Of a DNA stretch of 64,000 bases, positions 42,052 to 49,500 are shown in pieces (position 1 is the first letter of the stretch; each line of letters opens with the position of its first letter). The stretch covers positions 62,001-126,000 of the forward strand of contig NZ_JQLW01000009.1 in assembly GCF_000744415.1 (NCBI RefSeq), given 5' to 3'. Made by a program: the position numbers and the translations under genes. This DNA comes from Ghiorsea bivora. Its GTDB lineage: Bacteria > Pseudomonadota > Zetaproteobacteria > Mariprofundales > Mariprofundaceae. The notes below the pieces were generated by a model, which was not told the origin of the DNA, did not search any database, and saw only the letters and a list, made by a program, of their open reading frames with translations.

Positions 42052-42483
42052 TTAATCTTTTTTGATAATTTCTACATCAATCACTTCAACATTAGGGTAA
42101 CGCTTATGGTGTTTGCCCGAAACATCCATGTGGTGTGGGAAAGGTTTATATGTTTTACCTATCAACCAGCGCCGAATAGCTGGCACCAAAAGTAAAAAAC
42201 CCAATGTATCACTAATAAACCCTGGAATAAAAAGCATCACCCCAGCAATCACCAACATCACGCCATGCATCCCCTGCTCAGCAAGCTCATGCTGACGCAT
42301 ACTTTGCCGTGCTTTAAGCAAGGTTTGAATACCTTGAATACGAATCAATAAGCCGCCGATAATTGCAGTGAATAAACAAAGGGCAATGGTCGTCAAACCA
42401 CCAATACCACGACCTACTTCAATGAGAACATAAAGTTCTAAAAGGGGTAACAACACAAATAAAAGAAAGAAAATACGCATCAT
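42052..42483 (-). CDS. fxsA: FxsA-family membrane protein
   Basis: A 143-residue inner-membrane protein of the FxsA family. The conserved N-terminus RIFFLLFVLLPLLELYVLIE and IGGLTTIALCLFTAIIGGLL, and a later LFIPGFISDTLGFLLLVPAI, give three to four membrane segments. FxsA relieves F-plasmid exclusion of phage T7 in E. coli, but its own function is unknown. It is a single gene, divergent from the channel gene. Confidence 0.88.
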   Translation of the reverse strand: MMRIFFLLFVLLPLLELYVLIEVGRGIGGLTTIALCLFTAIIGGLLIRIQGIQTLLKARQSMRQHELAEQGMHGVMLVIAGVMLFIPGFISDTLGFLLLVPAIRRWLIGKTYKPFPHHMDVSGKHHKRYPNVEVIDVEIIKKD

Positions 42484-42601: not shown

Positions 42602-45472
42602 ATGAAAAGCAAAACTTTAGATAAAAATCTTTTATATTACCATATTGAATGGATTTTAATGCATCCAAGGTTTGGTTTTTTGATGATAGGTTTGGTTGCT
42701 TTATCTTTTACGCATGAACCTTGGTTGGCAGCCATTTTATTTACCATTTTTGTTGTTGAAATTGGTGCCCGTATTACCATTATGTTACATAAAACACGAA
42801 CCAACCCTTACCGCACATCGCTGAATCGAAAAATTGACGGTTTATTTCTTATACTTGATATCATTGGTGTTGCCTCCTTATTGATTACGATTTTTGACAT
42901 TCCATTCCAAGCAGAAGATGCTGCCTTGGTGCGTGTTTTACGCGCTGTATATTTAATGCGAACCTTACGTGTTTTCCGTTATTTTGACCTAGAAAGTGCG
43001 ATGTATTCACCTACTTATGGCATGTTTACCTCACTCATCATCATGGTTTCTTTCTTTGCCACCCATACGCTGATGTGGGTGATTATTATCTTCTTCGCTG
43101 TCGAGTTATCATTACGCTACCTTATCATGCGAAACATGAGCTTTGAAACACGCAAAGAAAAAAACTTGGAATGGTTTTTTTGGTGGTTGGACGTGATTGC
43201 AACCTTTGTGATGATACCTGCCTTTGCCATTATCCCCTACGGTGGCGCTTTAAGAATGATGCGTCTTGTCCGCCTTTTACGCCCATGGTTAGTGATTATT
43301 CGCAATTTAAAAGATGTGATGCGCGAAGGGCAATTTATGCAGGAAATCAACCTGATTGTTTTGGTACTTGCCGTAATTTCTATCGCTGGCGGCATTTTTG
43401 GTAAATTCTTACTCCCCGGTTTTGATTTTACCCAAGATGGTACGGTTGACCCGCAAGATGACAGCATGATTGCTCGCATTTGGTTTGCTTTCCGTCTCTT
43501 TACTGACCCCGGAAACTCTGTCGCCTACCCTGACAATGCATCCATTGCTATCTTCTCGATTGTCGCCGTTGTGATTGGTGTATTCATCTTCGCTTTCTTT
43601 ATTGGTATTGGTGCCAGCATTGTTTCCGACTTGATGACAAAACTACGCAATGAACGTCTCGCCGTCACCCGACACATGGTCATGATTGGTTGGAGTGATG
43701 TTGCGCCCTATATTATTACACATCTAAGATTGGTATCTGAACGTTCTTTTTCCAAACTTAAATTGGTCTTATTACAAGAGAGTGATGAGATGCACGATAC
43801 CCTACTTGAAGAAAAATGGGTCACCTACCGCACAGGAAACAGCAAACAACTTGAAGACCTCAAACGCGTCAACCTATCTGCTGCTCGCCAAGCTTTGGTA
43901 TTAATCCCTGATGACAAAAGCACCGCCGAAACCTTATCCGAAAGTTTCTTTTCTTTATTGGCTATTCGCAAAATGCACCCTGATATTTATTTAAGCATTG
44001 CGATGCCAGGCATGAGTGAACCTAGGATATCTGAACATCAACATATGTTACAAGTCGGCTGGGATGACCAAGGTCAATACAGTAAACCAACCGTGATTTT
44101 GTCTGCTGCGGACTTTCGTGCCAATGCCTTTAAAAACATTCTACAATACAGTGATTTTGACCAAGTTGTTAGCCGCTTAATGATTCCTGAAAGAACGGAA
44201 GAATCGGCGATGCAAGTTTGCGAATGGTCTGCTGAAATACGGCAACAACATGGGCAAACACTGCTTTTTACCCCCGATGGACAACATAGCTCCAATATCA
44301 TTCAAGCCGCAAAAGACTTGTTAAAACGTGGGGTTATTTTATTGGCAATCATTGATGACAACTGGAAAATCCAACCCATTTATCAACTGCCTACTGCCGA
44401 AAGAACTGTGGTCAAAGCTGTGGTTGGCATTGCTATCAATGAAAATGCGCTGCATGGCGAACTGCATTATGTGTTACATCGCCCTGAAGCTGCTCAAGAA
44501 GCAACAGATGAAACCTTTCATATTAGCTTACATCGCCCTGTAACAGAGCTGCGTTTACTCATCACTGGCTGGGTAGATAGTCTACCTTTATTGCTTAAAC
44601 GGTTAATGCCTGATTACCAACATATCGAAGTTGTTTTATTGGACAACTTACCTGAAGAGAAACTTATGGATGAGAAGGCTTACCTTCAACGACGTTTAAG
44701 CGAACAAAGCGGCGGCGATAAAATATCCATTTCAGTACAGGCTTGGGATTTCTCAGATATGGAAGTGTTACGCGATTATGTAAAAACATTTACACACATA
44801 ATTTTATCCCAACCCCAAGCATCTGAGCAAGAGCCATACACCGTGATTTCAACCATGTTGTCCCATATGATTAGCATGATTCATACAGAACAATCACGAC
44901 CTAAAATTTACCCCGTATTATCAGACCGCAACCAAGCGCGGCTTCTTCAAGAGGAGTTGGACAGATTCACCTTGCCTACCGAAGTGCACCTTGTGGTACC
45001 TGATGAGTTTTATGGTGCTTATGTCGCCCATACCAGCTTCCATATGTACACAGCAGAAAATGATGATGTATACCAAATGAAGCGGGTATTACGCCATGTG
45101 ATTCATGATCTCATGTCTGAAGATGGTAACCATGATGCGCTAGAGCTCTACACCATGGATGTGCATCAAACATTACCCGATGAACCCGAAGCACTTTATG
45201 CCTCTTTATTAAAACAAGGTTTTATTTGGATTGGTTACCGCCTCAATCATGCTTTCTCTTGGGATGACCCTCTGCAAAATATGATTCGCAGTGTTTTTCC
45301 AAGGGAAGGTGATTTTCATTGCTTACGCCAACATCAAATTATCATCAATCCTTTTGGCAATCCTATCTCTAGACGCTCTTGGGAGTTTAACAGGCATGAT
45401 ATTGCCGAGCTGATTGTGATTGGGGCAAACATTACCCCTGATACGGAAAAAAGTTCCCCTACCAACGCATGA
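42602..45472 (+). CDS. CASTOR/POLLUX-like ion channel with two voltage-sensor-like domains
   Basis: A 956-residue membrane protein. Hydrophobic helices of residues 13-100 end in an Arg-rich S4-like helix (LVRVLRAVYLMRTLRVFRYF, about 109-128). A second block (about 138-215) ends in another such helix, LRMMRLVRLLRPWLVIIRNL (about 217-236). One pore unit follows, with filter-like LFTDPGN (about 300-305), resembling the ADAGN/ADSGN filter of CASTOR/POLLUX. A long cytosolic part (from about 356, HMVMIGWSDVAPYIITHLRL) has repeated Rossmann-like RCK units. A sigma-54 site lies upstream and flagellar genes follow, so it may act in motility or ion homeostasis. Ion specificity is not known. Confidence 0.75.
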   Translation: MKSKTLDKNLLYYHIEWILMHPRFGFLMIGLVALSFTHEPWLAAILFTIFVVEIGARITIMLHKTRTNPYRTSLNRKIDGLFLILDIIGVASLLITIFDIPFQAEDAALVRVLRAVYLMRTLRVFRYFDLESAMYSPTYGMFTSLIIMVSFFATHTLMWVIIIFFAVELSLRYLIMRNMSFETRKEKNLEWFFWWLDVIATFVMIPAFAIIPYGGALRMMRLVRLLRPWLVIIRNLKDVMREGQFMQEINLIVLVLAVISIAGGIFGKFLLPGFDFTQDGTVDPQDDSMIARIWFAFRLFTDPGNSVAYPDNASIAIFSIVAVVIGVFIFAFFIGIGASIVSDLMTKLRNERLAVTRHMVMIGWSDVAPYIITHLRLVSERSFSKLKLVLLQESDEMHDTLLEEKWVTYRTGNSKQLEDLKRVNLSAARQALVLIPDDKSTAETLSESFFSLLAIRKMHPDIYLSIAMPGMSEPRISEHQHMLQVGWDDQGQYSKPTVILSAADFRANAFKNILQYSDFDQVVSRLMIPERTEESAMQVCEWSAEIRQQHGQTLLFTPDGQHSSNIIQAAKDLLKRGVILLAIIDDNWKIQPIYQLPTAERTVVKAVVGIAINENALHGELHYVLHRPEAAQEATDETFHISLHRPVTELRLLITGWVDSLPLLLKRLMPDYQHIEVVLLDNLPEEKLMDEKAYLQRRLSEQSGGDKISISVQAWDFSDMEVLRDYVKTFTHIILSQPQASEQEPYTVISTMLSHMISMIHTEQSRPKIYPVLSDRNQARLLQEELDRFTLPTEVHLVVPDEFYGAYVAHTSFHMYTAENDDVYQMKRVLRHVIHDLMSEDGNHDALELYTMDVHQTLPDEPEALYASLLKQGFIWIGYRLNHAFSWDDPLQNMIRSVFPREGDFHCLRQHQIIINPFGNPISRRSWEFNRHDIAELIVIGANITPDTEKSSPTNA

Positions 45473-45511
45473 ATCACACCTAAACTGTTGAAAACAAAGG
45501 GTTGTCATCAT

Positions 45512-45525
45512 GGCACCCCTTCTGC
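45512..45525 (+). promoter_or_regulatory. Sigma-54-type promoter of fliK
   Basis: ATGGCACCCCTTCTGCTTT has GG at 45512-45513 and GC at 45524-45525, 10 bp apart, a near-perfect TGGCAC-N5-(T)TGCT. The predicted start of transcription is 45537, one base before the ATG at 45538. Confidence 0.6.
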
Positions 45526-45537
45526 TTTAACCATGGT

Positions 45538-47253
45538 ATGATAAATACCAATAACATATCCACAGAAGCTAGCGCTGGCACAAACAGCATCAGCCAAGGT
45601 AAACATCAAGGCGCTAAAACAAACAAAACTTTATTCTCAACTTTGTTGGCTATGTTACAAAAAGGTGCCCCCCAGGGTTCTGCTAAACAAACTGTGCAAC
45701 AAGGTAGTCATAAAAATACAGTTTTATCCACATCAGAAGGCAAAACCAAAAACCAGTCTTTAACCAATCAACAAGGCAACAAAAACTTACAACACAGCTT
45801 AAGCCAAACCAGTAACATAGATGCAAAAATTAAACATATTTTACAACAGGCTAAAAACACGGGTTCAACAGATAAAAAAGAGCTAAGCAGTAAAAATTCA
45901 CAACATGCTTTAACACAAACGAACATTACACAAACAGCAAATAAAAATCGGCAACACAGTTTGCTTCAAACAGATGAAACACAAACCGTAAATAAAAATC
46001 TACAGTACATCTTGCAACAAAACCATGATACGCAAACTGCCGATAAAAATGTACAATACATTTTAGCACAAGCTGACAAAACATCTGTCACAACTAAAGG
46101 TTTAACCAACACATTCACTCAGGACACACCTACAAATACCAACAATGTTGATGCCAGCGATGCCATTGCATCCGTACAAGAAACGCGGGTTACACCATTG
46201 TTTATCAATACCCCTAAAAGTGGTGGTGCTGTCGCTGAACAACAAACCAAACAAACCAGCCGTGTAACATCCCAAACCACGACCCCAAATATTTCATCCG
46301 AACAAATTTCATCCGCACAAACAACACCAGAACTTTTAGCCGAAGCTTCAAACAAAAAAAATCAGGCTTCCCAAAATATAACACAGCAACATACAGAACG
46401 TTTTGCTGCCACCATGCAAAACGCATCACAAAACAAAACGGGTGAACAGTCGTTAAGCATGCAACAAAACAAACAGATTGAACAACAAATCACAACACAA
46501 CAAACGGCATCGCAACAAACCAATCCAATCAACACGGGTTCAGAGCAAGCCAACGATGGCATCAAAACAAGCCAAGCTGCCATTGCAGCCGTCCAACAGC
46601 GCACAAGTAGTCAAACACAACAAACACAATCAACAAACACAAATACTGTTGCTGCGACTAGTCCCAATGCAATCAGTATGGCAGCAGCGGACAACAATGC
46701 AGCATCACAACAGGATTTAAACTCCAATCAACGTGATGCCGACATGTCTTTATTGGACGCTACAAAAACGGACAATAAAAATGCCAAAGGTTTGGATTTC
46801 CAGGCGCAACTTGCCTATAAATCACAGCGTACATTTACCCCCGCAGACACCATGTTGGAAATTGTAAAATCTGCCAAAACGGGTAATACAAGCTTAGAGC
46901 TACAGCTAGAACCTGCCAATTTGGGTAAAGTACAGGTTTCCATCCAAATTGATCAAGCCAAACACATACAAGTGGTATTTACCGTTGACCAAGCCGCCTC
47001 AAAACAAGCGCTTGAACAACAAATGCCACAACTAAGGCTGGCCATGGCACAACAAGGTTTAGATTTGGGAAGTTTTTCCATGCAGATGAACCAGCAAGGC
47101 GGACAGCAACAAGGTGGTAACCAGCAGGCATCCAACACTAGCACAACCGGTAATGCTCTAGATGCCACCATACTTACCCATTCCAATGACGAACAAAATA
47201 CAAGAATAGGCGTGAACCTCGCAGCACAAGGTCACCTCAGTATCTTAGCATAG
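45538..47253 (+). CDS. fliK: Flagellar hook-length control protein FliK
   Basis: A Gln/Asn/Thr-rich protein of 571 residues with the Flg_hook domain at its end (about 435-520: LELQLEPANLGKVQVSIQID and MAQQGLDLGSFSMQM). FliK measures hook length and triggers the switch of export specificity. Residues 118-185 are four 17-residue tandem repeats (consensus NKNxQHxLxQTxxTQTA). The low-complexity N-terminal part fits the ruler role. The start is uncertain: the ATG at 45538 has no ribosome-binding site and falls at the predicted sigma-54 start, while an in-frame TTG at 45502 has AAAGGG before it. It heads fliK-flgD-flgE. Confidence 0.85.
   Translation: MINTNNISTEASAGTNSISQGKHQGAKTNKTLFSTLLAMLQKGAPQGSAKQTVQQGSHKNTVLSTSEGKTKNQSLTNQQGNKNLQHSLSQTSNIDAKIKHILQQAKNTGSTDKKELSSKNSQHALTQTNITQTANKNRQHSLLQTDETQTVNKNLQYILQQNHDTQTADKNVQYILAQADKTSVTTKGLTNTFTQDTPTNTNNVDASDAIASVQETRVTPLFINTPKSGGAVAEQQTKQTSRVTSQTTTPNISSEQISSAQTTPELLAEASNKKNQASQNITQQHTERFAATMQNASQNKTGEQSLSMQQNKQIEQQITTQQTASQQTNPINTGSEQANDGIKTSQAAIAAVQQRTSSQTQQTQSTNTNTVAATSPNAISMAAADNNAASQQDLNSNQRDADMSLLDATKTDNKNAKGLDFQAQLAYKSQRTFTPADTMLEIVKSAKTGNTSLELQLEPANLGKVQVSIQIDQAKHIQVVFTVDQAASKQALEQQMPQLRLAMAQQGLDLGSFSMQMNQQGGQQQGGNQQASNTSTTGNALDATILTHSNDEQNTRIGVNLAAQGHLSILA
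45889..46092 (+). repeat. Four tandem 51-bp coding repeats in fliK
   Basis: In-frame units at 45889, 45940, 45991 and 46042, each encoding 17 residues of the pattern NKNxQHxLxQTxxTQTA. A more distant fifth relative lies upstream (NKNLQHSLSQTSNI). Changes in copy number would alter FliK length without breaking the frame. Confidence 0.8.
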
Positions 47254-47263
47254 GAGAATTACA

Positions 47264-47929
47264 ATGCCTTTAGAAATTTCATCAACATATGGTGCACAAC
47301 CCGCCCCCGCGCCAAGTGGCACACAAAACTTAGGAACCAAAGAAGTTTTCCTTAAAATGCTGGTTGCGCAAATGGAAAACCAAGACCCTTTAAACCCCAC
47401 GGATTCTTCACAAATGTCCTCACAACTAGCGCAGTTCAATATGGTAGAACAACAAATTGATACCAATAAGTATTTGCAACAAATGGCAGCAAGCCAAGGT
47501 GGTTCTAGCAGTAATTTGGATACAGCCTCAGCGGGTTATTTAGGTCGCACAGTAATGATTAACGAAAGTAATATTCAGTATACAGGAACAAACCAACCCT
47601 TTAACGCTAGTTTGGATAATAATGCCAGCAATGTATATATCACCATCAGTGATAGTTTGGGCACACCTGTTCGTAATATGTCTTTATCTGCAATGCCTGC
47701 GGGTGATCAGCAACTTAGTTGGGATGGTAAAGATGATTTCGGCAACCCTGTCTCAGTGGGCGACTACAAAATTGATATTGCCGCCTTTGATGCTACAGGC
47801 CAAGCCGTGACCGCATCGATTCAACGCTCAGGTGTTGTTGATGCCGTTCGTATGACTTCTGCAGGCATACAACTCATTGTCGGTGGAACACCAACCAGCA
47901 TTGCCAATGTCACAGAAGTAAGAGTTTAA
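47264..47929 (+). CDS. flgD: Flagellar hook assembly (capping) protein FlgD
   Basis: A 221-residue hook-cap scaffold. The conserved N-terminal segment LGTKEVFLKMLVAQMENQDP followed by LNPTDSSQMSSQLAQFNMVE is diagnostic. The C-terminal half has the FlgD Ig-like and tudor-like domains (LSWDGKDDFGNPVSVGDYKI). A good ribosome-binding site (AGGAG) lies upstream. It sits 10 nt after fliK and 29 nt before flgE. Confidence 0.95.
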   Translation: MPLEISSTYGAQPAPAPSGTQNLGTKEVFLKMLVAQMENQDPLNPTDSSQMSSQLAQFNMVEQQIDTNKYLQQMAASQGGSSSNLDTASAGYLGRTVMINESNIQYTGTNQPFNASLDNNASNVYITISDSLGTPVRNMSLSAMPAGDQQLSWDGKDDFGNPVSVGDYKIDIAAFDATGQAVTASIQRSGVVDAVRMTSAGIQLIVGGTPTSIANVTEVRV

Positions 47930-47958
47930 TTTTTAACACATTCATATAGGAGATTATT

Positions 47959-49500
47959 ATGGGTATTTACAACGCACTTTATACAGGTTCCAGTGGACTA
48001 TCAGCTTTCGGTGAAAGTGTTCGCGTGATTGGTGATAACATCGCCAACATCAACTCTTTGGGTTTCAAATCACAAAACGTGGTCTTTTCCGATGTTTTAT
48101 CACAAACCGTTGGTGTAACACGCTCCAACATCGCCAACCAAGTGGGTAATGGTGTGCGCATCGGTATGATTACACGCGACCAGCAACAAGGGTCGATTCA
48201 GAATACCACCAGCGCTACCGATATGGCGATTAATGGCAATGGTATGTTTGCCCTCAAAGACCCTGCCAGTGGACAAACCTATTATACCCGCGCAGGTTCA
48301 TTTATCTTGGATAAAAACTCCAACCTTATTGATGGGCAAGGTTTTGTGGTTCAAGGCTGGGCAACCAATGAACAAGGTGATGCCACAGGTAATATTACCG
48401 ACATCACCTTTGGCGGGCTGGCATCCCAAGCCCAACCCACCACCAATGTTGATGTGGGTGTAACCCTTGATTCCAATGCAGCAACCTATAATGCAGGTGT
48501 TGCTTTTGATCCCAACAATGCAGCAACTTACCACTACAAAGCTGAAGCCAATATCTATGATTCATTAGGCCAACAACATGCGGTCAGTGTTTATTATATT
48601 AAAGAAGCCAATAATACTTGGAGCTGGCAGGCTGGCGTGGATGGCGCTGATGTTTCAGGTGGTATTCCAGGACAACAAGTGATTGTGGGAAATACCGCAA
48701 CCAATTTTAACACCACCAACCCAGCACTTGCATTGCCCTTGCCAGCAGGCACAGAAATTTCAGGTGATGCAACCTTTGACCAAGCTGTCACCATCAATGG
48801 TATTAATGTCTTGGCAGGGCAAACAGTCAGCGCGGCTTTAGGCAGCTCTGTTGTAGTCAATACCAGCACATTCCCTGCGGGCACCAATGTTACCTCAGGT
48901 AATGTGCTCACTGCACCTGCGAGTAACCAGCTTGTCTTTGGTAGCCAAGGTGAATTGGTCACTGAAGTTGGCCCTGGTATCAACTTCCCTTGGAACAGTG
49001 CTGCAGTATCCACCATCAACTTCAACTTTGGTGATGCCACCACCAATGACCAACAAGCTATTCTTGGTGATGGTTTAAATGGTACGGTACAAATGGCAGG
49101 TACATTTGCCACCCGGCAAATCGTACGTGATGGTTATGCATCAGGTTTCTTGGATAAATTGGAAACCGACTCCACGGGTCGTGTATTTGGTGTATTCACC
49201 AATGGACAACGCCGCTCATTGTATCAAGTCGCATTGGCAAAATTCCCCAATGATGCTGTGCTTAACCATGTGGGTAACAACCTGCAACAAGAAACCATTG
49301 CCTCAGGTTCACCCATCTTGGAAAAACCAGGTAATGGTGGTATGGGTTCTATCACCCCTTATGGTTTGGAGCAATCCAATGTGGATTTGGCGGGTGAATT
49401 TGTAAAATTGATTGTGGTACAACGTGGTTATGAAGCAAACTCAAAAACCATCTCAACCACAGACCAAATGTTATCGTCTTTAATGCAAATTAAACGTTAA
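47959..49500 (+). CDS. flgE: Flagellar hook protein FlgE
   Basis: A 513-residue hook subunit. The N-terminal rod-like region contains ALYTGSSGLSAFGESVRVIG followed by DNIANINSLGFKSQNVVFSD. The FlgE/F/G pattern continues with DMAINGNGMFALKD (about 90-103). The C-terminus has EQSNVDLAGEFVKLIVVQRG and YEANSKTISTTDQML. The central variable region (about 150-380) is Thr/Asn/Ala rich and somewhat longer than in E. coli FlgE (402 residues). A strong terminator follows. Confidence 0.96.
   Translation: MGIYNALYTGSSGLSAFGESVRVIGDNIANINSLGFKSQNVVFSDVLSQTVGVTRSNIANQVGNGVRIGMITRDQQQGSIQNTTSATDMAINGNGMFALKDPASGQTYYTRAGSFILDKNSNLIDGQGFVVQGWATNEQGDATGNITDITFGGLASQAQPTTNVDVGVTLDSNAATYNAGVAFDPNNAATYHYKAEANIYDSLGQQHAVSVYYIKEANNTWSWQAGVDGADVSGGIPGQQVIVGNTATNFNTTNPALALPLPAGTEISGDATFDQAVTINGINVLAGQTVSAALGSSVVVNTSTFPAGTNVTSGNVLTAPASNQLVFGSQGELVTEVGPGINFPWNSAAVSTINFNFGDATTNDQQAILGDGLNGTVQMAGTFATRQIVRDGYASGFLDKLETDSTGRVFGVFTNGQRRSLYQVALAKFPNDAVLNHVGNNLQQETIASGSPILEKPGNGGMGSITPYGLEQSNVDLAGEFVKLIVVQRGYEANSKTISTTDQMLSSLMQIKR

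Follow-up and report, generated by a model that had tools for sequence, protein, structure and literature searches.

A probable tandem-voltage-sensor, single-pore channel of Zetaproteobacteria

In the genome of Ghiorsea bivora, a marine iron oxidiser, we identified a gene for a channel whose subunit very probably comprises two complete voltage-sensor domains (VSD1 and VSD2), one pore and two RCK domains. To the extent that the present tools can tell, such a tandem-VSD, single-pore channel is real and its architecture undescribed. To our knowledge, voltage-gated channels have one sensor per pore unit, and the same holds for the channels covered in one review. A literature search for a single pore with two VSDs in tandem, which covered few subscription papers or preprints, found no precedent.

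The gene is an intact open reading frame with an ATG start (Table 1), located in the window, the 64,000-nucleotide stretch of DNA that was analysed. The closest relatives of the protein are 90-93% identical and occur in Ghiorsea sp. MAGs. Two more relatives are encoded in the same genome: locus L058 has a 942-aa paralogue (47% identical) and L059 a more divergent protein of 1,199 aa. Among the Pseudomonadota genomes searched, the family was found only in Zetaproteobacteria. In an alignment of 66 relatives, 45 form branch A (~950 aa) and 21 form branch B (~1,200 aa), with which the focal protein shares 20-26% identity.

Two sensor blocks and one pore

The original prediction described two Arg-rich S4-like helices, each closing a hydrophobic block. 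We found both at the residues given there, ALVRVLRAVYLMRTLRVFRYF as the first S4 (R111, R114, R120, R123 and R126) and GALRMMRLVRLLRPW as the second (S4′; R218, R221, R224 and R227). Each ends a full S1-S4 block, and the conservation of the two helices in the 66 relatives is above chance. When all frames between stop codons across the whole window, down to a length of 100 codons, were searched for R-h-h-R-h-h-R (h being hydrophobic or small), there were three occurrences in 24,850 residues, all inside the two S4 helices of this protein. Canonical VSD positions are the S2 motif FxxExxxR, which is the charge-transfer centre of Kv channels, the S3 Asp and the S4 Arg. Invariant in the 66 relatives are F50/E53/R57, D86 and R111/R114/R123 of VSD1 and E168/R172, D197 and R218/R221 of VSD2; both blocks thus keep the charge-transfer set (Glu and Arg of S2, Asp of S3 and the first two Arg of S4) without exception. 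Variation is slight at R120 and R126, whereas R224 and R227 are kept in branch A only. In branch A, each of the 45 sequences has, in both blocks, a basic residue at every third S4 position, an acidic residue in S2 and an Asp in S3.

Nearly all 66 sequences have an intact VSD1, which is more strictly conserved than VSD2. Branch B keeps R218/R221 of VSD2 but has V/I/L at R224, N at R227 and L at F165. Because branch B is without two of the four S4′ arginines and the S2′ aromatic residue, VSD2 is unequally sensor-like across the family. This inequality favours the alternative that one domain alone is a working voltage sensor and the other is structural or modulatory; in two-pore channels, too, the two VSDs differ in role. 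However, an idle domain would be expected to erode, and the full charge set is kept in both blocks of the 45 branch A sequences, including the focal protein, which counts against a single working sensor. We regard this alternative as a possible but doubtful one. The stricter conservation of VSD1 would also suit a domain with its own permeation path (an Hv1-like proton or gating-pore current) that is fused to the channel and does not control the gate, since lone VSDs are able to conduct protons (Hv1). Against this, VSD1 has five S4 arginines and we found in it no feature singling out proton selectivity, so we consider this explanation improbable.

Profile comparisons separate the two sensor blocks from the pore. 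The VSD1 and VSD2 profiles align with each other over S1-S3 (P 7e-12), and neither aligns with the pore. In PDB profile searches with the membrane part, VSD1 alone resembled KCNQ2 S2-S4 (E 0.0015), and VSD2 with the pore resembled KvAP S3-S6 (E 0.045). Pfam Ion_trans (PF00520) matched five family members above its cut-off over S2′-S6 (residues 156-343), for example L044 (50.4 bits, cut-off 25); the Pfam search gave no Ion_trans match to the focal protein itself. As this match spans S2′-S6 in several branch A members, VSD2 and the pore constitute an ordinary 6-TM unit, to which VSD1 is extra. A related class of RCK channels with a single VSD matches VSD1 (P 2e-6) and, more weakly, VSD2 (P 1e-3), and the pore region shows only a weak match to a channel of this kind.

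The pore loop and the S5-S6 pair each occur once in the protein, and S1′ directly follows VSD1. With the RCK domains cytoplasmic and the N-terminus inside, the number of helices before S5 has to be even, which fits eight and not seven. Seven helices would invert the pore and RCK domains, and the basic residues in the loops fit eight: in branch A, the mean K+R count per loop is 2.9-4.1 in the predicted cytoplasmic loops (S2-S3, S2′-S3′, S4′-S5 and post-S6) and 0-0.7 in the predicted periplasmic ones; the short S4-S1′ linker contains no K or R. These results contradict the competing case named in the original prediction, a single sensor with the second Arg-rich helix as an amphipathic linker. 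S4′ does end in Pro (RPW), and AF2 confidence is low there. However, its arginines recur with a spacing of three and are separated solely by hydrophobic residues, S2′ FxxExxxR and the S3′ Asp precede it, and the parity of the topology and the loop charges demand a membrane span, so we find the linker explanation scarcely credible. Two sensor blocks for one pore, as first proposed, is instead the reading backed by the profiles, the invariant charges and the topology.

AF2 models showed ten TM helices and a pore helix at low confidence (pLDDT 42 for the full protein and 52 for residues 1-356). They were built from a shallow alignment of eight close sequences, against the 66 relatives known, and are too weak to confirm the fold. 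Foldseek with the residue 1-356 model returned no significant match; its insignificant matches include many voltage-gated channels, which is no proof.

Table 1. Features of the channel gene and its neighbours. Positions are those of the window unless a locus is given.
Feature	Position	Strand	Basis or remarks
Tandem-VSD, single-pore, double-RCK channel, family A, 956 aa	42602..45472	+	ORF
VSD1, residues 22-127: S1 22-38, S2 40-63 (F50/E53/R57), S3 74-98 (D86), S4 104-127	42665..42982	+	AF2 helices (low confidence), charges invariant in 66 relatives, KCNQ2 VSD match
VSD2, residues 137-239: S1′ 137-153, S2′ 155-178 (F165/E168/R172), S3′ 184-210 (D197), S4′ 215-239	43010..43318	+	As VSD1, plus VSD1 profile match and Ion_trans in relatives
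S5, residues 244-270	43331..43411	+	AF2 models; BLASTP homology to bacterial CASTOR/POLLUX
EF-hand-like loop DFTQDGTVDPQD, residues 275-286, predicted periplasmic turret	43424..43459	+	Pattern in relatives
Pore helix and filter, residues 289-305 (TDPGN 301-305)	43466..43516	+	DPG in relatives
S6, residues 313-350	43538..43651	+	AF2 models; motif in common with bacterial CASTOR/POLLUX
RCK1, residue 357 onwards, with an approximate C-terminal end	43670..44480	+	Slo-like_RCK below cut-off; PDB profile matches
RCK2, residues about 649-940	44546..45421	+	Family profile against bacterial CASTOR/POLLUX to residue 883
fliK	45502-47253	+	Pfam Flg_hook
flgD	47264-47929	+	Pfam FlgD
flgE	47959-49500	+	Flagellar hook genes fliK-flgD-flgE directly 3′ of the channel (45502..49500), conserved beside it
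Branch B channel of the same genome	L059:1438-5037 (contig C10)	-	Between MCP and cheY genes
Methyl-accepting chemotaxis protein (MCP) gene	L059:5085-7349		Neighbour of branch B channel
cheY	L059:1067-1441		4-bp overlap with branch B channel; Hpt/CheA gene also present

Pore, turret loop and RCK domains

The predicted single pore with an LFTDPGN filter is present at residues 299-305, and DPG occurs in 60 of the 66 relatives. BLASTP detected similarity to bacterial CASTOR/POLLUX proteins from residue 249 (28% over 217 aa, E 1e-12), and the family profile aligned with theirs over residues 289-883 (P 4e-8), terminating at a common IGYR motif. An S6 motif, GVFIF..IGI, is also common to both. The bacterial CASTOR/POLLUX proteins have filters of the D[APS]G type (MDPG, MDAG, LDSG, FDAG and TDPG), two TM helices and no S4. 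The comparison with CASTOR/POLLUX made at the outset thus holds for the pore and RCK region, which is homologous to that of the bacterial members, but these have no voltage sensor of any kind.

Support for RCK (TrkA_N-like) domains after S6 is weak but consistent across a Slo-like_RCK match (E 2e-4, below the Pfam cut-off), PDB matches and profile alignment. The profile of the soluble part matched DMI1, CASTOR, BK and MthK RCK1 in the PDB at E 0.003-0.3, with DMI1/CASTOR best; the single-sequence PDB search reached DMI1 at E 0.04, which is not significant alone. An internal repeat comparison of RCK1 with RCK2 gave P 0.003, and an NCBIfam search of the focal protein gave no match. Several RCK units had been predicted; they are present, but number two, with N-lobes from about residues 357 and 649. 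Many of the PF06241 matches (L137-L144) belong to channels with one VSD and a TVGYG filter, and weak scores for this domain therefore reflect only RCK similarity. PF06241 had no match in the genome of the window, in the listed Zetaproteobacteria or in the Pfam results for the focal protein.

The turret loop occurs in both branches, in 36 of the 66 relatives with a strict EF-hand pattern and in 61 with a loose one, and D275 is kept in 65. Judged by this pattern, the loop may bind periplasmic Ca2+. Neither the loop nor the operon context described below had been included in the original prediction.

Distribution and gene neighbourhood

Of 78 Zetaproteobacteria genomes, 56 encode a member of the family and 47-49 have a family A copy; the family occurs in 14 of 18 genera. 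Searches of Pseudomonadota genomes with the membrane-part profile found no tandem arrangement in 321 genomes beyond Zetaproteobacteria, in 48 genomes of the class of G132 (one weak partial match) or in 385 genomes of another class (one ordinary 331-aa match); the three sets overlap in part. At one locus (L048, G005:C127) one family A channel gene directly follows another, which points to a local duplication or to genes arranged as a pair.

The focal gene falls among branch A in the tree, as do the operonic flagellar channel genes. Seven loci (L146-L149, L151, L153 and L157), which represent several genera and two families, show the neighbours on either side; in these the gene order is fliF-G-H-I-(J)-motE-channel-fliK-flgD-flgE on one strand, with the channel gene between motE and fliK. 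This cluster is split in Ghiorsea: the L058 paralogue follows fliF-G-H-I-J-motE, and the focal gene precedes fliK-flgD-flgE (the window and L005-L009). Upstream of the channel gene in Ghiorsea is a divergent gene for an FxsA-family membrane protein (window 42052-42483, minus strand). A 144-155-aa protein without a Pfam match is encoded between motE and the channel gene (L058:6318-6752; L151:9248), and a small two-TM K+ channel-like gene (Ion_trans_2; L058:9634-10059, minus strand) directly adjoins the 47% paralogue.

Branch B genes have a different setting. With neighbours identified by Pfam MCPsignal, Response_reg and Hpt, 20 of 21 directly follow a methyl-accepting chemotaxis protein gene, the other being at a contig end, and in 13 of the 14 loci with enough sequence they are followed by cheY and usually next a CheA/Hpt gene. 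The arrangement of MCP, channel, cheY and Hpt/CheA genes at L059 is conserved across Zetaproteobacteria. The C-terminal 100 residues of the L059 protein are a conserved domain with LQNIDRVxQRL, fused to the channel in the cheY operon; the motif occurs twice in L061, L068 and L073. Its DxxxQ spacing is that of the CheZ phosphatase motif, and Pfam searches of the branch B C-terminus gave no CheZ domain or match of any kind.

Among the 78 genomes, 54 have both a channel (A or B) and flagellar markers (FliG_C or FlgD), 18 have neither, two have the channel only and four have flagella only (Fisher P 6e-12, inflated by common descent and by the incompleteness of MAGs). Of the four genomes with flagella only, three (G020, G045 and G047) are nearly complete and apparently truly channel-free; G045 and G047 are single-contig genomes. 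With at least three such genomes, the channel is dispensable for flagella, and these genomes are natural controls for its role. The existence of flagellated genomes without the channel, and of family A genes away from flagellar genes (L150, L154, L155 and L159), is in keeping with general work in proton-motive force control, cation homeostasis or osmoregulation, the place in the flagellar operon being due to history only. Yet the distant branch B was independently fixed in a chemoreceptor-cheY-cheA cluster, and 18 of the 20 genomes without flagellar markers also have no channel. A purely general role is unlikely on this evidence.

Proposed function and comparison with known channels

Overall, the reading we favour, and think probable, is a voltage-gated, RCK-regulated cation channel in motility and taxis; the motility part, taken by itself, is evenly balanced. 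The channel would be a tetramer whose subunit has ten TM helices, with VSD1 and VSD2 in series and then a CASTOR/POLLUX-type pore with an acidic D-P-G filter, and a cytoplasmic double-RCK gating ring. VSD2 would be coupled to S5-S6 in the usual way, and VSD1, stacked or peripheral, would provide a second voltage input, so that both sensors gate the pore. The RCK ring would tune the response to a cytoplasmic ligand, and the turret loop might permit modulation by Ca2+ in the periplasm. The pore would not be of the K+ type, would perhaps be Ca2+-permeable, as in plant CASTOR, and would open in response to ligand or to depolarisation, when the proton-motive force falls; the resulting ion signal or entry would act on flagellar motility and taxis.

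The operon context ties the channel to the flagellum and a chemosensory pathway, and the flagellar and chemotaxis gene clusters suggest that membrane voltage may help to steer swimming. A more tentative proposal, which we consider rather less than likely, is a voltage-based taxis circuit of Zetaproteobacteria in which branch B signals to CheY within the chemoreceptor operon, branch A acts at the flagellum, and loss of proton-motive force alters swimming. If so, tandem-VSD channels would report membrane potential, and with it the energy state of the cell, and the doubling would make the response to voltage steep or give it two thresholds. A channel with two complete sensors for each pore subunit, or eight in all if it is tetrameric, would be a natural experiment on the coupling of gating charge to the gate, and the long-standing question of membrane potential as a signal in bacterial swimming becomes testable in a defined gene family.

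The channel aligns with KCNQ2 and KvAP (Ion_trans) over the VSD and over VSD and pore, and shares their FxxExxxR, S3 Asp and S4 Arg, but has one additional VSD per subunit and no TVGYG filter. Slo1/BK also combines VSD, pore and two RCK domains in a subunit, with a weak RCK1 sequence match; however, BK, built as S0-S6, has a single VSD and a K+ filter, whereas the channel described here combines a second VSD with a DPG filter. Two-pore channels carry two VSDs on one chain as well, but they consist of two 6-TM units with two pores (PMC13095418), in contrast to the single pore that follows two VSDs here. A bacterial voltage-gated cation channel has been linked to motility and chemotaxis before: NavBp of alkaliphilic Bacillus, in the account of Ito 2004 cited in PMC4225499. 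It is a Na+ channel with a single VSD, unrelated beyond the superfamily. CASTOR/POLLUX/DMI1 and their bacterial relatives likewise have a D-[A/S/P]-G filter in place of TVGYG and two tandem RCK domains, and the sequence homology begins at S5 and extends through RCK2. LjCASTOR was shown to form a tetramer that is selective for Ca2+, is regulated by it and has an RCK gating ring (PMC6697748), and by analogy its Ca2+ selectivity might carry over to the focal channel. For plant CASTOR/POLLUX the prediction is four TM segments (PMC6697748); members of that group, which lack a voltage sensor and have between two and four TM helices, differ from the Ghiorsea channel, with its ten TM helices and two S4.
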